Source of the DNA: Ardenticatenia bacterium
GTDB taxonomy: Bacteria > Chloroflexota > Anaerolineae > 4572-78 > NAK82
NCBI GenBank assembly: GCA_003130875.1
Contig: QEXY01000069.1
Location: forward strand, 1-42,890
Length of the DNA: 42,890 bases
Direction: 5' to 3'
Every line of letters starts with the position of its first letter. Position 1 is the first letter of the stretch. The position numbers were made by a program, and so were the translations under genes. Positions 6,853 to 13,969 of the stretch are shown one piece after another. Under the pieces are notes generated by a model. The model was not told the origin of the DNA and ran no database searches. It worked only from the letters and a program-made list of their open reading frames with translations.

Positions 6853-6881
6853 AGTATACTGCATTAATCTTTTATGAACAA
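6853..6881 (-). promoter_or_regulatory. Promoter for the Trm112-like / peptidase / (his) transcript
   Basis: Minus-strand TTGTTC (6881-6876) and TATACT (6858-6853) are 17 bp apart, 35 bp upstream of the Trm112-like ATG. It sits back-to-back with the transketolase promoter at 6895-6923. Confidence 0.5.
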
Positions 6882-6894
6882 CTCGCCTGCAAAG

Positions 6895-6923
6895 TTGGCG
6901 TCGCAGAAGAGGCGGAATATAAT
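6895..6923 (+). promoter_or_regulatory. Promoter for the transketolase operon
   Basis: TTGGCG (6895-6900) and a perfect TATAAT (6918-6923) are 17 bp apart, about 58 bp before the GTG start of the transketolase N-terminal subunit. Divergent from the promoter at 6853-6881. Confidence 0.6.
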
Positions 6924-6981
6924 GCGGTCTTGTACTGCCTGCTTGATGAACTTGAGGACGAGAAGGAGGTATATTCCCCCT

Positions 6982-7842
6982 GTGAATCGAAACATCCACC
7001 AGCTGGAAGCAATCGCCAATGAACTGCGTTGTCTCGCTTTACGGGCCATTTATCTGGCCGGGTCAGGTCATCCAGGTGGTTCGTTGTCCGCTGCAGAGAT
7101 CGTAACCGCTTTGTACTTTTCGGTGCTGAACATCGATCCCGCATGTCCCGATTGGCCCGAGCGTGACCGAGTGGTGTTGTCCAAAGGACACGGATGCCCT
7201 ATCCTCTACGCGGCGCTGGCCAAGCGCGGTTATTTCCCGCTTGAGGAGCTGTGGACGTTGCGCAAGCTGGGCAGCCGGTTGCAGGGACACCCCGATATGC
7301 GCAAAACCCCTGGCATCGACGCCACCACCGGATCGTTGGGGCAGGGCATTTCGGTCGCCGTCGGCATGGCGTTGGGGGGCAAATTTCAGGGCAAATCGTA
7401 TCGCGTGTACGCGATTATGGGATGCGGCGAACAACAAGAAGGTCAGGTATGGGAAGCCGCTATGTCGGCCGCGCATTACTGCCTGGACAATCTTGTCGGC
7501 ATCGTAGACTACAACACCCTCCAGATCGACGGGTGCAACGCGGAGATTATGGAGATTGCGCCCTTGTCGGATAAATGGCGTGCCTTCGGGTGGCACGTGC
7601 TGGAGGTCAACGGGCACGATATAGCGCAGCTATTGGATGCTTTTGCAGAGGCAAAGAACACGCGGGGTAAGCCGACCGCGATCATTGCCCGCACGATCAA
7701 GGGCAAAGGGGTCTCCTTTATGGAAAACCAAGTAAAATGGCATTCGTCCATCCTGACGAAGGAGCACTTCGAACAGGCGATGACAGAACTGGGATGTGAC
7801 GGCTATTTCGCTGCAGCGTGCAAGGAGACATCCCATGTCTGA
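6982..7842 (+). CDS. Transketolase, N-terminal (TPP pyrophosphate-binding) subunit
   Basis: First half of a split transketolase, which with the next gene moves two-carbon units between sugar phosphates in the non-oxidative pentose phosphate pathway. The 286-residue protein shows GHPGGSLSAAEI, VLSKGHGCPILYA, TGSLGQGISVAVGMALG and DYNTLQIDG. The ThDP/Mg motif reads MGCGEQQEG: Cys148 (codon 7423-7425, TGC) replaces the usual metal-binding Asp of GDG. GTG at 6982-6984 follows AGAAGGAGGT (6961-6970); a longer ATG frame from 6874 would begin upstream of the promoter. The stop overlaps the next start by 8 bp. Transketolase fold is clear; activity with the Cys is uncertain. Confidence 0.92.
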   Translation: MNRNIHQLEAIANELRCLALRAIYLAGSGHPGGSLSAAEIVTALYFSVLNIDPACPDWPERDRVVLSKGHGCPILYAALAKRGYFPLEELWTLRKLGSRLQGHPDMRKTPGIDATTGSLGQGISVAVGMALGGKFQGKSYRVYAIMGCGEQQEGQVWEAAMSAAHYCLDNLVGIVDYNTLQIDGCNAEIMEIAPLSDKWRAFGWHVLEVNGHDIAQLLDAFAEAKNTRGKPTAIIARTIKGKGVSFMENQVKWHSSILTKEHFEQAMTELGCDGYFAAACKETSHV

Positions 7843-8797
7843 GAAGATCCCCAATAACCGTGTTGCGTACGGAAAAGCGCTCGTCTCGGTCGGTGAGACG
7901 CGCCCGAACGTGGTTGTGCTCGAGGCCGACCTCGGCAAAGGCACCCAAACGGTGCTCTTCCGCGAACGTTTCCCGGAGCGTTATTTCCCGGTGGGCATCG
8001 CCGAAGGGAATATGATGGGTGTGGCGGCTGGCCTGGCCACGACAGGCTTGGTGCCTTTTGCCAGCACTTTCTGTGTCTTCGCCAGCATGCGGGCTGTCGA
8101 GCAGTTTCGGAACAGCATCGCCTACCCTCGACTGAACGTCAAAGTGGTGGCCACGAATGCCGGGATCGAGATCGGACCAGATGGTGCCACCCACCAGGCC
8201 ATTGAAGACATTGCGATTATGCGGGCGATCCCGAATGTCACCGTATTGGTGCCGTCGGATCCGGTGATGACCATGAAGCTGATCCCTATGGTGGCGGATT
8301 CGATGGGTCCGGTGTATGTCCGCATCGGACGTCAGGATACCCCTTATCTCTATGATGAGAGTACCTTGCACCTGGAATTCGGCAAGGCGGTTTTGGCCCG
8401 TGAAGGCTACGATGTGACGATTATCGCGATCGGCAATATGGTGTGCCGCTCATTGGCAGCGGCAGAGATTCTCGAGCGCGAGGGCATTTCGGCGCGGGTG
8501 TTGGACATGTTTTCCATCAAACCACTCGACAGCGATGCCATTGTGCAGGCAGCGCGGGAGACGGGTTGCATCGTGACCGCTGAAGATCACAACATTCTGG
8601 GTGGTCTGGGTGGTGCAGTGGCAGAAGTGTTGAGCGCCGAGCTGCCGGTGCCTCTGGTGAGAGTGGGCGTGCAAGATACCTTCGCCGAGTCCGGAGATGG
8701 AGAGGCGGTGCTGCGCGCGTATGGTCTCACGGCTGAGCGGATCGCTGAAGCGGCACGCATCGCAATGGCACGGCGCGATGGTCTCAGACGCACATAG
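7835..8797 (+). CDS. Transketolase, C-terminal (pyrimidine-binding) subunit
   Basis: Second half of the split transketolase (320 aa), supplying the pyrimidine-binding domain and the C-terminal domain. Recognisable segments are VLEADLGKGTQT, FPVGIAEGNMMGVAAGLATTG (the Glu of AEGNM activates the thiamine aminopyrimidine), STFCVFASMRAVEQ, GATHQAIEDIAIMRAIPN and the C-terminal TAEDHNILGGLGGAV. The ATG at 7835-7837 lies inside the end of the upstream gene (ATGTCTGA overlap) behind AAGGAGA, so the subunits are coupled. 1-Deoxyxylulose-5-phosphate synthase is a relative but is a single longer chain. Confidence 0.94.
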   Translation: MSEKIPNNRVAYGKALVSVGETRPNVVVLEADLGKGTQTVLFRERFPERYFPVGIAEGNMMGVAAGLATTGLVPFASTFCVFASMRAVEQFRNSIAYPRLNVKVVATNAGIEIGPDGATHQAIEDIAIMRAIPNVTVLVPSDPVMTMKLIPMVADSMGPVYVRIGRQDTPYLYDESTLHLEFGKAVLAREGYDVTIIAIGNMVCRSLAAAEILEREGISARVLDMFSIKPLDSDAIVQAARETGCIVTAEDHNILGGLGGAVAEVLSAELPVPLVRVGVQDTFAESGDGEAVLRAYGLTAERIAEAARIAMARRDGLRRT

Positions 8798-10079
8798 TAA
8801 TGCCCTCTGCAATTGGGGCGCGCATCCTCCAGCGAGCGAGATCTCGTTGCGCATCCTGATGCTGGCACCCACAATGTTCTTCGCGGACTATGGGTGCCAT
8901 GTGCGCATCTTGGAAGAAGCCAATGTCTTGCAACGGATGGGGCATCAGGTCACCATCCTGGCGTATCCTAACGGGCGCGACATCGCCGGTTTGCATGTTG
9001 AGCGCTGTTGGGGCGTGCCGTTCAACTACCGGATCATTGTAGGGTCGTCGCGACACAAAATTTATCTCGATGTGATGCTCGCGCTGAAGTCCCTGCGCTA
9101 TGTGTTGCGCAACAGGCCGCACATCATCCACGCCCATCTGCACGAAGGTGCACTTTTGGGATGGTTTCTCAGCCGGCTGACGGGCGCACCCCTGGTTTTC
9201 GACTTTCAGGGCAGCATGACGGCGGAGATGATTGACCACCATTTCCTGCGCGGTCCGGACAGCCGATTCTATCGCCCGCTGCGTTGGCTTGAACGACGTA
9301 TCGACCGGGCAGCGCCGGTTGTGCTCACCAGCTCCCTGCATGCCTCCAGGCTCCTCAACGAAGAATTTGGCGTGCCCGCCGAGCGGATCATTCCGCTGCC
9401 GGACTGTGTCAATCCGGAAACCTTTTCGCCTGAGATTATCGCTCAAGAAGAAAAAGCCCAGCTGAAGCATGCGTTGGGAATACCGCCCGATCGTCGGATC
9501 ATTGTATATCTGGGTCTGTTGACCGAGTATCAGGGCATTGGTCTCCTGTTGGAAGCGGTGCGCGAGATTGCCGGTCGCCGTGCCGATTTTCACGTGCTGC
9601 TGATGGGCTTTCCGCACGCCTCTTATCAGGCGCGTGCGACGGAGATGGGCATTGTCGACCGTTTTACCTTCACCGGCAAGGTGGCTTATGAGGACGCGCC
9701 GCGCTATCTGGCGCTGGGCGACGTCGCCGTGGCGCCCAAGCTCTCCGCGACCGAAGGGAGTGGCAAGCTGCTGAATTACATGAGCATGGCGTTGCCGACG
9801 GTGGCATTCCCGGTGCCCGTCAGCCGGGAGTATCTGGGGGAGTGGGGCATGTATGCGTCGGAATGTTCCGCTACAGCACTGGCCGCCGCTCTGGAAAAAG
9901 CGCTGGATATGGGCACGGCCGCACGAACCCAGCTGGGATTGCGATTGCGGGAACGTGCCTGCAGTCTCTACTCATGGCGTCGCGCGGGGGAACAACTGGT
10001 GGAGGTGTATCGCGGCCTCCTGGAAGGGAGAGCGGGTCTTGCCTATCACCAGAGTCCCATCAGCCGTTTTCCCTCCTGA
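8778..10079 (+). CDS. GT4-family glycosyltransferase
   Basis: A retaining, GT-B-fold glycosyltransferase (433 aa from the ATG chosen) that probably transfers a sugar from a nucleotide donor to a lipid or glycan acceptor. It shows the N-terminal LRILMLAPTMFFADYGCHVRI strand, HIIHAHLHEGALLGWFLSRL, the donor-domain start IIVYLGLLTEYQGIGLLLEAV, and ATEGSGKLLNYMSMALP, a variant of the EX7E donor-binding motif. Start is uncertain: ATG at 8778 overlaps the transketolase end by 20 bp, while TTG at 8847 would start just before the first Rossmann strand; neither has a strong ribosome site. Donor and acceptor cannot be read from sequence. Confidence 0.85.
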   Translation: MVSDAHSNALCNWGAHPPASEISLRILMLAPTMFFADYGCHVRILEEANVLQRMGHQVTILAYPNGRDIAGLHVERCWGVPFNYRIIVGSSRHKIYLDVMLALKSLRYVLRNRPHIIHAHLHEGALLGWFLSRLTGAPLVFDFQGSMTAEMIDHHFLRGPDSRFYRPLRWLERRIDRAAPVVLTSSLHASRLLNEEFGVPAERIIPLPDCVNPETFSPEIIAQEEKAQLKHALGIPPDRRIIVYLGLLTEYQGIGLLLEAVREIAGRRADFHVLLMGFPHASYQARATEMGIVDRFTFTGKVAYEDAPRYLALGDVAVAPKLSATEGSGKLLNYMSMALPTVAFPVPVSREYLGEWGMYASECSATALAAALEKALDMGTAARTQLGLRLRERACSLYSWRRAGEQLVEVYRGLLEGRAGLAYHQSPISRFPS

Positions 10080-10137: not shown

Positions 10138-11163
10138 ATGTCTTGCTGTTCACCTGATCTCCCGGCCGTATCCTCGGATGCGCCGACGGTCTCGATTGTG
10201 ATCATCAACTGGAACGGCAAAGAGCACCTCGCGTGCTGCCTTGCTGCGCTGGCGGCACAGACCTATCGGGATTTCGAGGTGATCGTCGTAGATAACGGCT
10301 CGACAGACGGCTCGGTCGCTTTTCTCCGCGAACGATATCCGGCGGTGCGTCTGATTGGCAATGACCGCAACCTGGGATTTGCGCGCGCCAATAATCAGGG
10401 CATTGCCGTGGCACGCGGCCGATACATCGTCATTCTCAACAACGACACCCAGGCGGAGCCACAATGGCTCGAAGCGCTCGTGAACGCGGCTGAAAGACAT
10501 CCGGAGATGGGCGCCTTTGCTCCACTTGTCTTGTTCAACGATCGGCGCGATGTGATTGACTCGGCAGGGCTGACGGTCTCCGTACTCGGTCATGGCATCC
10601 AGAACCTTCTGGGCGAACGGGTGGAAAGAGTCCAGGGTGCTTGCGAAGTTTTCGGAGTGAGCGCAACCGCCGCGCTGTTTCGCAGAGAAATGTTGCAGGA
10701 TATCGGCCTTTTTGACGAGGACTACTTCATCTACTATGAAGATGTGGATCTGGCCTGGCGAGCACGCCTGCGCGGTTGGCGTTCGCTCTTAGTGCCTGAG
10801 GCGGTCGTGTATCATGCCCACTCGGCCACGGTTGGCCGCGGCTCCCCTTTCAAGAAGCGTCTGCTGACCCGCAACCGATTGTGGACCATAGCTAAGGATT
10901 ATCATTTCCCCGCGATTGTGTTCTTTCTGCCGCTCATCCTGGCGTTCGAGGTAGGTTTCATTGTCCTGTCTCTGCTCAGGAGGGATGTGGCACCGGTGAC
11001 GGGGTTCTGGCAGGGGGTGACCGGACTACCCGGCGCGCTGAGGAAGCGTACCTCCATCCAGTCAAGCCGCACAGCTTCTTTCCGCCAGTTGGCATCGTTC
11101 ATGCACTGGTTCAACTCCCCGTTTTCCACCTGGCGTCTCCGTCGAGACCTCGGACGTCTTTAG
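10138..11163 (+). CDS. GT2-family glycosyltransferase (rhamnosyltransferase-like)
   Basis: An inverting GT-A glycosyltransferase of 341 residues. The fold signature is clear: SIVIINWNGKEHL, VVDNGSTDGS, NRNLGFA-type NDRNLGFARANNQG, the metal-binding LNNDTQ (DXD-like), a FGVSATAALFRREM acceptor region and YYEDVDLAWR with the catalytic-base Asp. This pattern is typical of WbbL-like rhamnosyltransferases, but sugar specificity is inferred only from family resemblance. One hydrophobic stretch (about 257-280) near the C-terminus suggests membrane association. It lies 58 bp after the GT4 gene, so both probably serve one surface-glycan pathway. Confidence 0.88.
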   Translation: MSCCSPDLPAVSSDAPTVSIVIINWNGKEHLACCLAALAAQTYRDFEVIVVDNGSTDGSVAFLRERYPAVRLIGNDRNLGFARANNQGIAVARGRYIVILNNDTQAEPQWLEALVNAAERHPEMGAFAPLVLFNDRRDVIDSAGLTVSVLGHGIQNLLGERVERVQGACEVFGVSATAALFRREMLQDIGLFDEDYFIYYEDVDLAWRARLRGWRSLLVPEAVVYHAHSATVGRGSPFKKRLLTRNRLWTIAKDYHFPAIVFFLPLILAFEVGFIVLSLLRRDVAPVTGFWQGVTGLPGALRKRTSIQSSRTASFRQLASFMHWFNSPFSTWRLRRDLGRL

Positions 11164-11252: not shown

Positions 11253-11304
11253 GCAGAGTAGGGAATACTGAAAGGTGTAGATGGCAATCTAAGAGGAAGT
11301 GGTC

Positions 11305-12558
11305 ATGATAAGGAAACGCACGTGGAGAGCACTTGTGTTATGCTTTGTAATGGTCATTTTGGCCATGGTATCAGGCAGGACCGACCATGTGGCTGGAGCT
11401 ATATCTCGGGAGCGTGACACCGAGGGGCGCTCCATTCCCCACCTCTCTGATGCGCGATCTGGCGTCGAAGACCTACCCGCACCTCAGACAGAGCCTCTCA
11501 GCGTGATCATCGTGGCGCCCTCGGCGGAAATGGGGGATTTCGGCGCCAACCGTGGCAATGTGTGGGATATGGCGGAATCGAGCATCGTTGACATCGTGGC
11601 TCAGACCGAGCCTTTCTGGATGGAACGCCGCCCGGCTAGTGAAGGTACCATTGTGCGCGGTTCCACCGGTAGCCAGGTGCTAGCAATGATGTTCTGGGCT
11701 TCCTCCCAAGATACCTTCCCTACTCACCAATACCACCACCTGGTTTACCGGATGAAAATCCAGGCACCTCGGACATGCTGGACGAACGGACGTGTGGCAT
11801 ATGCCAGGAACTGGCCTCGCTGGTATGGTTCTCAAGTGTCCAGCTTTCCTTTTGTACCCCATGTTCCACCGTTAAACTGTCCCTATGGTAACTTTTGCAT
11901 TTATTACTTGGACCTGGCACGCAATAATAATTATCCTGGTTGGCCAACCTGGATGGGGACGAAATCCACCACTGATCCGTCCCCTTGGCTAAGAGATCCG
12001 GTGAAGGCGTTTGGTATCGTGCCCAATGAAGTGTGCGTGGATCAGAACGGAAAAGTGACAGCAGTACCGGAGTACTTCGACTTGGATTTCGTTTATCTCA
12101 CCGGAGATATCGTCGCGCGTGCCGAGGATGGCTATCGCTATCAGCTACGCTACGATCTCAACGCACCAGGCGCTCAAAGGGTGACCGTGACGATCCGCTA
12201 CCAGGAGCTGCACGAGCTACGCCCACCCGGCCAGGAACCTCCCTGTAACGCCGATCTGTTTGCCAACAGCTGGAAGGACTTCAACCCTCCCGCGCGTGAT
12301 ACGATCAATCTGATCGCACCTGAACCTCCCGAGCCGGCGGGCGAAAATCGCGTTTTTCTACCCGTAATTGCACGAGCCACTGGTGCGGGGCTGGGAAAAT
12401 GGGGCTATTGGCTGGACTTCTCGGACGGCACCCGTTTTCAGGATGGTAAGAGCTATTACCTCTGCATCGAAGCATACGATGGAGCGCGCCGTGCATACCG
12501 GGTGAGCAGTGCACCTGTCATCCGTGTGCCGCGCAGCCCATGGTTCGGCCCTAACTAG
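11305..12558 (+). CDS. Secreted protein of unknown function with internal VFLPVIA motif
   Basis: I do not recognise the family. The 417-residue protein starts MIRKRTWRALVLCFVMVILA, a clear signal peptide, and the rest is hydrophilic and rich in Trp, Tyr and Pro. About residues 70-130 include SVIIVAPSAEMGDFGANRGN; the middle (about 150-225) is aromatic-rich with several Cys; about 260-320 (DLDFVYLTGDIVARAEDGYRY) looks like beta-sandwich. Near 340-352 an acidic Pro linker precedes VFLPVIARA, a motif I associate with exported Chloroflexota proteins, followed by a ~65-residue beta-rich tail. The ATG follows AAGAGGAAG; a GTG two codons earlier is less likely. No enzymatic motif seen. Downstream gap 12559-12769 shows nothing clear. 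Confidence 0.7.
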   Translation: MIRKRTWRALVLCFVMVILAMVSGRTDHVAGAISRERDTEGRSIPHLSDARSGVEDLPAPQTEPLSVIIVAPSAEMGDFGANRGNVWDMAESSIVDIVAQTEPFWMERRPASEGTIVRGSTGSQVLAMMFWASSQDTFPTHQYHHLVYRMKIQAPRTCWTNGRVAYARNWPRWYGSQVSSFPFVPHVPPLNCPYGNFCIYYLDLARNNNYPGWPTWMGTKSTTDPSPWLRDPVKAFGIVPNEVCVDQNGKVTAVPEYFDLDFVYLTGDIVARAEDGYRYQLRYDLNAPGAQRVTVTIRYQELHELRPPGQEPPCNADLFANSWKDFNPPARDTINLIAPEPPEPAGENRVFLPVIARATGAGLGKWGYWLDFSDGTRFQDGKSYYLCIEAYDGARRAYRVSSAPVIRVPRSPWFGPN

Positions 12559-12769: not shown

Positions 12770-13969
12770 TTGCGCATCACATCGGGTTCTGGGTTGCACC
12801 ACCTGTTGTGGAAGTCATTTAGTCGGTTGGCCATAGGGGTCGTGCTGAGCTCCGTTGTGCTCAGCTGCATCCCCGCGATGCCCCCCTTGCCCGCTGTGCC
12901 TCGCGCGGAACGGGGCCGGCTGCGTGTGGCCATCCTGGCACCGTTGAGCGGAGAGCTGGCCACGTATGGCAGAATCGTACGCCAGGCTGCGGAGCTGGCG
13001 TTTGACGAGTGGAACGCACGCCATAGCGGGGGGATTTTCATTGAATCTATCGCGGAGGACACCCCATGCGATGCCATGCACGCGCGTCAGGTGACAGAGC
13101 GCATCATCGCTGCGGGGGTGCGCTTCGTCGTGGGTGGAATCTGTTCCGAGGCGGCGATCCCTATTGCCAGTGTAGTAGATAAAAGGGGCGCCCTGTTCAT
13201 TGCCATGAGTGCCACGCATCCATTGGTCACGATTGACGCGCAGGGCAACACGCGTCCACGGGTCTTTCGCACAACCTTCACCTACGCTCAACAAGGACGT
13301 GCGGTGAGCCGCTTCGTCTTACAGACGTTGCGCCTGGATCGCGTCGCAGTGGTCAACAATCCGGAAAGTCCATTTGCTCGGGAAGTGGTGGCCGCCTTCA
13401 ACGAATCCTTCACTCGCCGGGGCGGCTATGTTTTGAGCATAACCGTTGATCGCGGTCAACCGTCTGATTTCATCGAGCATCTGGATGCGCAGATGATGTC
13501 CGATGTCCAGGCGGTGTATGTGCCAGATGATTATGCTGCTGTTGTGCGCGTGCGCGATGCGTTATGGCAGAAGGGTATCAGCAGGCCTGTGTTGGGCAGC
13601 GATGGGTGGAATATACACGCTGTCCGCCTGGCTGCTGGGGAAGATGTCTACCTGGTGGCGCACTATAGCGCGCAGGTCGCCGATCCGACTGCACAGCAAT
13701 GGGCGGCGCGCTACCGTGCGGCTTTTGCCGTGGAGCCCGATACGTTGGCTGCCCTGGCGTACGACGCAGCGATGCTGCTCGCTCAGGGCATCGAGCAGTC
13801 CCAGAGCACCTCGCCAGAGGCAGTGGCAGGTGCGCTCAGTGTGGTGGATTATGAGGGCGTTACAGGGCGCTGGCGCTTCGATGTACAACACAACCCCCTC
13901 AAACGAGCTTTTTTCTTGAGAGTTCAAGACGGCACGCTCCAGTTTGCAGGCAGTGCCGATGTCGAGTAA
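12770..13969 (+). CDS. Periplasmic-binding-protein-type lipoprotein (branched-chain amino acid ABC receptor family)
   Basis: A type-I periplasmic binding protein (LivJ/LivK-like, Peripla_BP_6) of up to 399 residues. The N-terminus has a hydrophobic stretch ending in VVLSC, a plausible lipobox, so the mature protein is probably lipid-anchored. RLRVAILAPLSGELATYGR, GIRF-like GVRFVVGGICSEAA, FRTTFTYAQQG, RVAVVNNPESPFARE and PDTLAALAYDAAMLLAQGI follow the fold order of the family. The first possible start is a TTG at 12770-12772 without an obvious ribosome site; a slightly later TTG is possible. No permease or ATPase genes for this class are adjacent, so it either serves distant components or acts as a receptor. 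Ligand unknown. Confidence 0.8.
   Translation: MRITSGSGLHHLLWKSFSRLAIGVVLSSVVLSCIPAMPPLPAVPRAERGRLRVAILAPLSGELATYGRIVRQAAELAFDEWNARHSGGIFIESIAEDTPCDAMHARQVTERIIAAGVRFVVGGICSEAAIPIASVVDKRGALFIAMSATHPLVTIDAQGNTRPRVFRTTFTYAQQGRAVSRFVLQTLRLDRVAVVNNPESPFAREVVAAFNESFTRRGGYVLSITVDRGQPSDFIEHLDAQMMSDVQAVYVPDDYAAVVRVRDALWQKGISRPVLGSDGWNIHAVRLAAGEDVYLVAHYSAQVADPTAQQWAARYRAAFAVEPDTLAALAYDAAMLLAQGIEQSQSTSPEAVAGALSVVDYEGVTGRWRFDVQHNPLKRAFFLRVQDGTLQFAGSADVE

Follow-up and report, generated by a model that had tools for sequence, protein, structure and literature searches.

Substrates of sortases and exosortases, of the LPXTG and PEP-CTERM types, have at their C-terminus a motif, then a hydrophobic segment, then a basic tail. 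To our knowledge, the means by which exported proteins of Chloroflexota are retained at the cell surface are largely unknown. Two short NCBIfam models, NF053834 (ultrashort_CTERM) and NF050076 (sort_motif_YLP), share the description 'YLP-box putative sorting motif-containing protein'. The name itself says 'putative', and we know of no experiment in which a YLP-box protein was located on the cell surface.

The cell envelope of Chloroflexota is treated as disputed in passages of the literature (PMC7332563). In the available portions of the open-access literature on the motif and on Chloroflexota sorting, no description of the YLP-box was found; as the NCBIfam models exist, curators know the box, and it may be described outside the open-access literature.

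Here we examine P0001, a protein encoded within a stretch of 42,890 nucleotides of Chloroflexota DNA (termed the window). Like the proteins to which the two models refer, P0001 is exported-looking, comes from Chloroflexota and carries a motif of the same V-[YF]-L-P-[LIV]-[LIV] kind. It differs from them in that its box is located 62 residues before the end of the protein, in a loop of the last domain, whereas the ultrashort_CTERM name and most examples point to the extreme C-terminus.

The P0001 gene and its product

The gene and its immediate neighbours occupy the following positions in the window.

8697..10079, + strand, GT4-type glycosyltransferase gene, upstream neighbour (Pfam)
10138..11163, + strand, GT2-type glycosyltransferase gene, upstream neighbour (Pfam)
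11291..11299, + strand, ribosome-binding-like stretch AGAGGAAG, 5 bases upstream of the P0001 ATG (sequence reading)
11305..12558, + strand, P0001 gene, stop included, 417-aa exported-looking protein (ORF call and homologues)
11305..11400, + strand, approximate signal peptide, with a basic n-region and a hydrophobic core at residues 6-24 (hydropathy)
12770..13969, + strand, substrate-binding protein Peripla_BP_6, downstream neighbour (Pfam)

Translation from the ATG yields 417 residues, and a GTG at position 11299 would yield 419. The ORF is real and not a chance frame, because relatives exist at 64, 59, 48, 42, 39 and 37 % identity. By its hydropathy profile P0001 looks like a typical exported protein, in which a hydrophobic stretch at residues ~6-24 is preceded by a basic n-region. 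After residue 35 there is no second hydrophobic 19-mer (maximum mean hydropathy 0.80). Anchoring of the sortase or exosortase type was rejected for P0001, as the protein lacks the hydrophobic C-terminal segment.

The original prediction, made from the sequence alone, had described an exported protein of 417 residues that is rich in Trp, Tyr and Pro, follows two glycosyltransferase genes, belongs to no recognised family and shows no catalytic signature. The profile above, a composition of 3.4 % Trp, 4.6 % Tyr and 9.1 % Pro, and the GT4 and GT2 genes listed agree with the first part of this description. Searches of Pfam, NCBIfam and PDB sequences with the whole of P0001 gave no matches at E<=10, so that the protein has no recognised family and, for that reason, falls in no known catalytic family either. 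A clear match to a characterised enzyme or adhesin, the result that had been named as contradicting the prediction, did not occur; homology and fold searches returned only fold-level likeness to carbohydrate-binding modules (CBMs), other jelly-rolls and Ig-like domains.

A small family in Chloroflexota

P0001 is encoded by a single-copy gene, and relatives were found in 8 of the 25 genomes of its order, its own genome counted. Across the class, the family profile has matches in 13 of 396 genomes, five of them only via distant, larger proteins. A query with the single P0001 sequence gave no match in viral contigs or in the genome-contig scan; the alignment query of genome contigs recovered seven named loci, from metagenome-assembled genomes labelled Anaerolineae, Anaerolineales, Ardenticatenia or Chloroflexi. 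The family alignment (A1) has 18 invariant columns in eight rows, one of them incomplete, with 31-62 % identity to P0001. On sequence comparison, P0001 thus belongs to a small Chloroflexota family.

Several weaker matches were set aside. L008, L009, L010 and L011 (E about 0.005) were rejected as chance; the motif is absent from all four, and the translations of L008 and L010 were also inspected in judging them. Short matches of L117, L120 and L121 to alignment A3 (E 1.5e-4 to 8e-4) were not counted with the superfamily described below, and L117 and L121 serve solely as examples of motif placement.

Two predicted domains

Structure prediction and a fold search, which had been proposed as a check, were run and gave a predicted jelly-roll plus an Ig-like domain. 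The features within P0001 are as follows.

11542..12114, + strand, predicted N-terminal jelly-roll, residues about 80-270 (AlphaFold model, VIA-align)
12130..12537, + strand, C-terminal Ig-like domain, residues about 276-411 (AlphaFold models, hhalign)
12310..12390, + strand, variable, probably disordered loop in the Ig-like domain, residues 336-362 (model, column conservation)
12349..12375, + strand, YLP-box R-V-F-L-P-V-I-A-R, residues 349-357 (NCBIfam model scores, column conservation)

An AlphaFold model of residues 61-417, built from an eight-sequence alignment, has a mean pLDDT of 61.7 and a pTM of 0.60. Its N-terminal part is beta-rich, with pLDDT values of 41-71 in blocks of ten residues, mostly below 70; the C-terminal part is predicted better. 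VIA-align of the jelly-roll region gave rows with Z 8.2-11.5 over 132-161 residues, headed by 7zkq_A, a complex I assembly chain (Z 11.5, rmsd 3.1, 154 residues). Several carbohydrate-binding modules are in the same list (CBM8, Z 9.9; CBM28, 9.8; CBM15, 9.1; CBM11, 9.0; CBM30, 8.8), as are the laminin-IV, ephrin-receptor and MAM domains (Z 8.2-9.6). As these latter domains score alongside the CBMs, the jelly-roll fold does not in itself show sugar binding.

The five CBM families and 7zkq_A have the overall fold in common with the N-terminal domain of P0001 as modelled (Z 8.4-11.5), from which they differ at 6-12 % identity, in the lack of a Pfam match for P0001, and in a setting where ephrin receptors score nearly alike. 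No CBM family matched P0001 by sequence at E<=10 (Pfam, PDB sequences), and Foldseek with the full P0001 model gave no match in the PDB at E<=0.001; absence from the Foldseek and VIA-align lists excludes no CBM or Ig family. From the model, the N-terminal domain probably resembles carbohydrate-binding modules, and we infer from this likeness that it may bind a glycan.

A separate model of the C-terminal part (residues 256-417) has a mean pLDDT of 71.6 and a pTM of 0.68. In the numbering of that model, strands 23-31, 37-47 and 69-80 lie ahead of the motif and strands 108-116, 128-136 and 141-145 after it; the first strand, 4-11, we assign to the predicted jelly-roll. Foldseek with this model found one PDB match at E<=0.001, to protein 4.2 (TM 0.43), and VIA-align found generic Ig-like folds (best Z 9.2); no function was drawn from either.

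Profile comparison gave a closer relationship. The C-terminal domain of the family (A5) matches a set of motif-less Ig-like repeats from distant relatives (A6) by hhalign with a probability of 94.5 % and E 7.4e-8. Seven of the nine A6 repeats match PF10342 (Kre9_KNH) at E<=1, the best being L025 (4.3e-7, above the cut-off), and five of the nine also match Big_7 (best E 0.0098). Ig-like copies in L020, L025 and L113 match PF10342 above the cut-off, and the P0001 relative L031 matches it below the cut-off (E 0.53). P0001 itself has no match to PF10342, just as it has none to any other Pfam family at E<=10, and no Pfam family matched L114, L116, L026 or L022 at E<=0.01. By way of repeats that match PF10342, the P0001 profile indicates that its C-terminal domain is related to Kre9/KNH-like Ig domains, a relationship that rests on profile alignment and modelling. 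P0001 differs from PF10342 domains in its YLP-box loop of ~25 residues and in the domain upstream.

The motif lies within a variable loop

As had been predicted, the motif is internal: VFLPVI corresponds to residues 350-355. The original prediction went on to place it before a further beta-rich domain of ~65 residues, which was wrong, since the last 62 residues contain the closing three strands of the Ig-like domain. These strands are well conserved across the P0001 family. In the alignment of A5 with A6, strands align before and after the loop, which as far as V354 stands opposite a gap. Because the strands align on both sides and the loop falls in the gap, the motif constitutes an insertion in a single domain and not a boundary before another one. 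An HMM search had been proposed to find homologues and domain boundaries; profile searches recovered the small family, and profile comparison puts the motif inside a domain.

In the C-terminal model, VFLPVI occupies model residues 95-100, within a stretch (91-105) of pLDDT < 50, and residues 81-107 have no secondary structure. Despite its position in this loop the motif is conserved. Among seven family members, the columns for R349, V350, F351, L352, P353, I355 and R357 score 1.9-7.0 (mean BLOSUM62) versus -1.5 to 1.3 for most surrounding loop columns, with P341 and P344 (2.5) and G362 (3.7) as exceptions. A basic residue precedes the box in all seven members, and the second position after it is Arg or Lys in six. 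Basic flanks are not universal among more distant proteins, being absent in L022 and L113.

Scores against the NCBIfam models are marginal. An excised 35-aa stretch of P0001 scores, at E 0.08, 13.0 bits against NF053834 (cut-off 10) and 12.8 bits against NF050076, below the cut-off of 15; in the scan of its own genome with NF050076, the P0001 site scores 12.7 bits (E 1.08). Of five excised stretches (from P0001, L033, L031, L026 and L022), four lie over the cut-off of NF053834, with L031 absent from the matches to that model; L026 alone exceeds the cut-off of NF050076. With E-values of 0.009-0.084 for excised stretches, single scores are weak, and the case for assigning the P0001 motif to the YLP-box rests on conservation and position in the sequences.

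Internal and C-terminal boxes among relatives

In every one of the seven family members whose C-terminus is intact, the box stands 61-81 residues from the end; its form is degenerate in L030 (VYMPAV) and L034 (LFLPFL). In six distant relatives (L022, L024, L026, L113, L114 and L116) it lies 45-60 residues before the end, again in the last Ig-like domain. The common loop was established from alignment A3 for the family and three of these relatives, and by eye for L113, L114 and L116. Genome G217, by contrast, encodes two proteins, L020 and L025, in which the box is at the true C-terminus; the ends of L119 and L124 are degenerate versions of it, and L118 is cut by the ends of its locus.

Taken as a superfamily of 18 proteins, these sequences have exactly one motif in 15 cases and none in three, and none was found in the reversed sequences. 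The motif is in the last Ig-like domain in 13 of the 18 and at the true C-terminus in two, with degenerate ends in two more. Repeats of the same protein were left out of the 18, as were L032 and L005 (cut before the C-terminus), L122 (an end fragment of 58 aa) and the short matches L117, L120 and L121; L023 and L027 correspond to the proteins of L118 and L124. Of the 18, several have an open 5' side and were covered in part, and the superfamily was gathered with motif-containing profiles, which favours motif-bearing members in these counts.

In the distant relatives, a 'G-x-PWDM' domain and an Ig-like domain form a pair that recurs along the protein. Among these, L113, L114, L116, L022, L026, L020 and L025 are large exported proteins whose 'G-x-PWDM' jelly-roll repeat has no Pfam match (E<=1 or E<=0.01). 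Like P0001, the multi-repeat Chloroflexota proteins L020, L024, L025, L026 and L113 alternate jelly-roll and Ig-like domains and carry one YLP-box each. Their repeat pairs number at least two (open frames of 528-1123 aa), and in two of these proteins the box is C-terminal, whereas the P0001 family has a single jelly-roll/Ig-like pair.

The YLP-box in the P0001 genome and in the phylum

The P0001 genome yielded 18 matches to the motif pattern and seven to the reversed pattern. Six of the 18 are at C-termini, 2-4 residues before the stop; five are internal in proteins judged by eye to be exported-looking (L057, L058, L064, L067 and L069, the start of the last lying outside the stretch seen); and seven are in ordinary or spurious frames (L059, L060, L061, L063, L068, L070 and L071). 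NF050076 added a further C-terminal case, L149. The expectation that the motif would be C-terminal in other proteins of this genome was therefore borne out by six pattern matches and L149.

The seven proteins that end in the box (L055, L056, L062, L065, L066, L072 and L149) are of at least five kinds, among them a clostripain-type protease, a DUF2341/TIG protein, a beta-propeller/DUF11 protein and a repeat protein; the ends of L055 and L066 are similar. In L066 a 'choice-of-anchor Q' domain (NF041518), residues 449-497 of 508, ends just before the terminal YLP-box. We take the 'choice-of-anchor' name to denote a domain that precedes various anchoring signals. By analogy, the YLP-box in L066 seems to stand where known anchoring signals are located in other phyla. 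L066 is on contig C114, and L055, on contig C7, ends in a similar DMGAYE...VYLPVIRK.

Internal boxes occur in several settings. The box is directly behind the signal peptide in L064 (1276-2823), where the protein that follows has a CBM96/DNRLRE domain, before a CAP domain in L058, and behind a Pro-rich linker following a papain-like protease domain in L067 (113-2053). It is mid-protein behind a Pro-rich stretch in L117 and ahead of the main domain in L121. L067 is an exported protein that combines a chagasin-type inhibitor domain, the papain-like protease domain and the internal box, after which comes a weak choice-of-anchor J/MAM-like domain, below the cut-off.

Across the phylum, the C-terminal pattern V-[YF]-L-P-[LIV]-[LIV]-x-[K, R or a few polar residues]-stop, in which TGG also passes as a stop, is present in 44 of 301 genomes, with 193 matches versus 30 for the reversed pattern. 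Matches cluster in a few families, f71 (up to 18 per genome), f81, f107, f53, f6 and f1, the last being that of the P0001 genome. At E<=0.1, matches to NF053834 occur in 21 of 151 Chloroflexota genomes and in none of 14 control genomes. NF050076 at E<=10 is unspecific, with matches in 12 of the 14 control genomes, over the cut-off in two, and only three of 29 proteins picked because they end in the motif have a match at E<=0.01; such short models can therefore say little.

A 400-kb sample of a motif-rich genome, G450, contains five tagged exported proteins, all with C-terminal boxes and none with an internal one; the sole internal match is in a frame that was not judged exported. The C-terminal form thus dominates there, in a sample biased by the choice of its two contigs for motif places already found. 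Export was judged in this case by a crude hydropathy rule, which 56 of 290 ORFs pass.

Proposed function of P0001 and of its motif

We propose with modest confidence that P0001 is a lectin-like surface protein held at the envelope by its loop YLP-box. In this model, P0001 would be a non-enzymatic protein exported by the Sec route to the cell surface, where the jelly-roll head would recognise a ligand, most likely a glycan of the organism's own envelope or of its surroundings. The Ig-like domain may act as a rigid stalk that displays the box R-V-F-L-P-V-I-A-R on a flexible loop. In docking onto an envelope component, the box would form a short hydrophobic strand flanked by basic residues, and the protein would in this way be held at the envelope.

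The box is kept in P0001 without a free C-terminus, which makes it unlikely that this protein undergoes a process dependent on the terminal carboxylate or on a transmembrane helix after the motif. The internal YLP-box accordingly argues against any mechanism that requires a free C-terminus, and docking onto a partner in the envelope is the simplest reading. An internal box that is conserved in a loop and is interchangeable with a C-terminal box among relatives limits the possible mechanism. A broader generalization, that the YLP-box is a retention motif independent of position, working at the C-terminus, in an Ig-like loop, in interdomain linkers and behind a signal peptide, we offer tentatively and as one that could well fail. 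If it is true, the reader of the box would be an envelope docking partner and not a transpeptidase or secretion machine that acts on the C-terminus, and the P0001 family would be the clearest natural test case for a position-independent YLP-box.

A different view is that the motif, as a linker element of the Ig-like domains, has only a structural or decorative role and that its likeness to a C-terminal tag is convergent. The motif is short and hydrophobic, the NCBIfam scores are marginal, L022 and L113 lack the basic flanks, and the ratio of pattern to reversed matches in the P0001 genome (18 to 7) makes chance recurrence possible. However, the superfamily places the box either in the last Ig-like domain (13/18) or at the true C-terminus (2/18, both in one genome), with none in reversed sequences, and the family keeps basic residues on the two sides of the box (7/7 before, 6/7 after) while most nearby loop columns are unconserved. 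We regard convergence as unlikely.

Rivalling docking most directly as a mechanism is cleavage of the loop, with the internal box serving as a proteolytic site at which a cut would release the protein or expose the box as a new C-terminus, on which the usual C-terminal mechanism would then act. The models put the motif in a disordered and probably accessible loop. Those C-terminal boxes that were found without a forced ending stop 2-4 residues past the motif, and nine of 11 end in Lys or Arg. Since six of seven family members have Arg or Lys two residues past the motif, cleavage after R357 by a trypsin-like protease would produce a canonical box at the C-terminus. Such a cut would nevertheless split an Ig-like domain whose last strands are well conserved, though these could stay bound, and in L064, L121 and L058, where the box is near the N-terminus or before the main domain, it would cost the protein that domain. 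Processing of this kind is in our judgement improbable, and we retain docking of an uncut loop as the preferred reading.

Glycosyltransferase genes and other neighbours

The glycosyltransferase genes upstream of P0001 recur beside some relatives. A GT4 orthologue of 65 % identity is adjacent in L033, a GT2 orthologue of 78 % identity adjoins the relative in L028, and in the P0001 genome, G287, G015 and G296 a GT4 gene is next to the family gene or separated from it by one gene. The GT4 gene and the P0001-family gene are on different contigs in G161 and G299, and no GT4 was found at E<=1e-30 in G278 or G080.

That P0001 is instead an accessory factor linked to the glycosyltransferases, for example in surface polysaccharide assembly, and not a general surface lectin is very improbable: the GT4 and GT2 genes adjoin in the genus, and a GT4 orthologue alone does so in the distant H5_CFX7 genome, yet a GT4 relative is present in 21 of the 25 genomes of the order against eight with P0001 relatives, no glycosyltransferase is recognisable by eye beside the gene in L030, L031 or L034, and the linkage fails in G161 and G299.

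Other neighbours are shared or replaced among relatives. A substrate-binding gene similar to that at 12770..13969 is also downstream of the P0001 relative in L003/L029. In L031 (5715-6635) and L034 (900-1913), which are relatives from another family, the gene is by eye near a lipoyl-synthase-like gene and not near glycosyltransferases, so that gene neighbourhoods vary between lineages. In the window, immediately before the glycosyltransferase genes, at 6874-8797, transketolase is encoded by two separate, overlapping genes (Pfam), the first corresponding to the N-terminal part and the second to the pyrimidine-binding plus C-terminal part.
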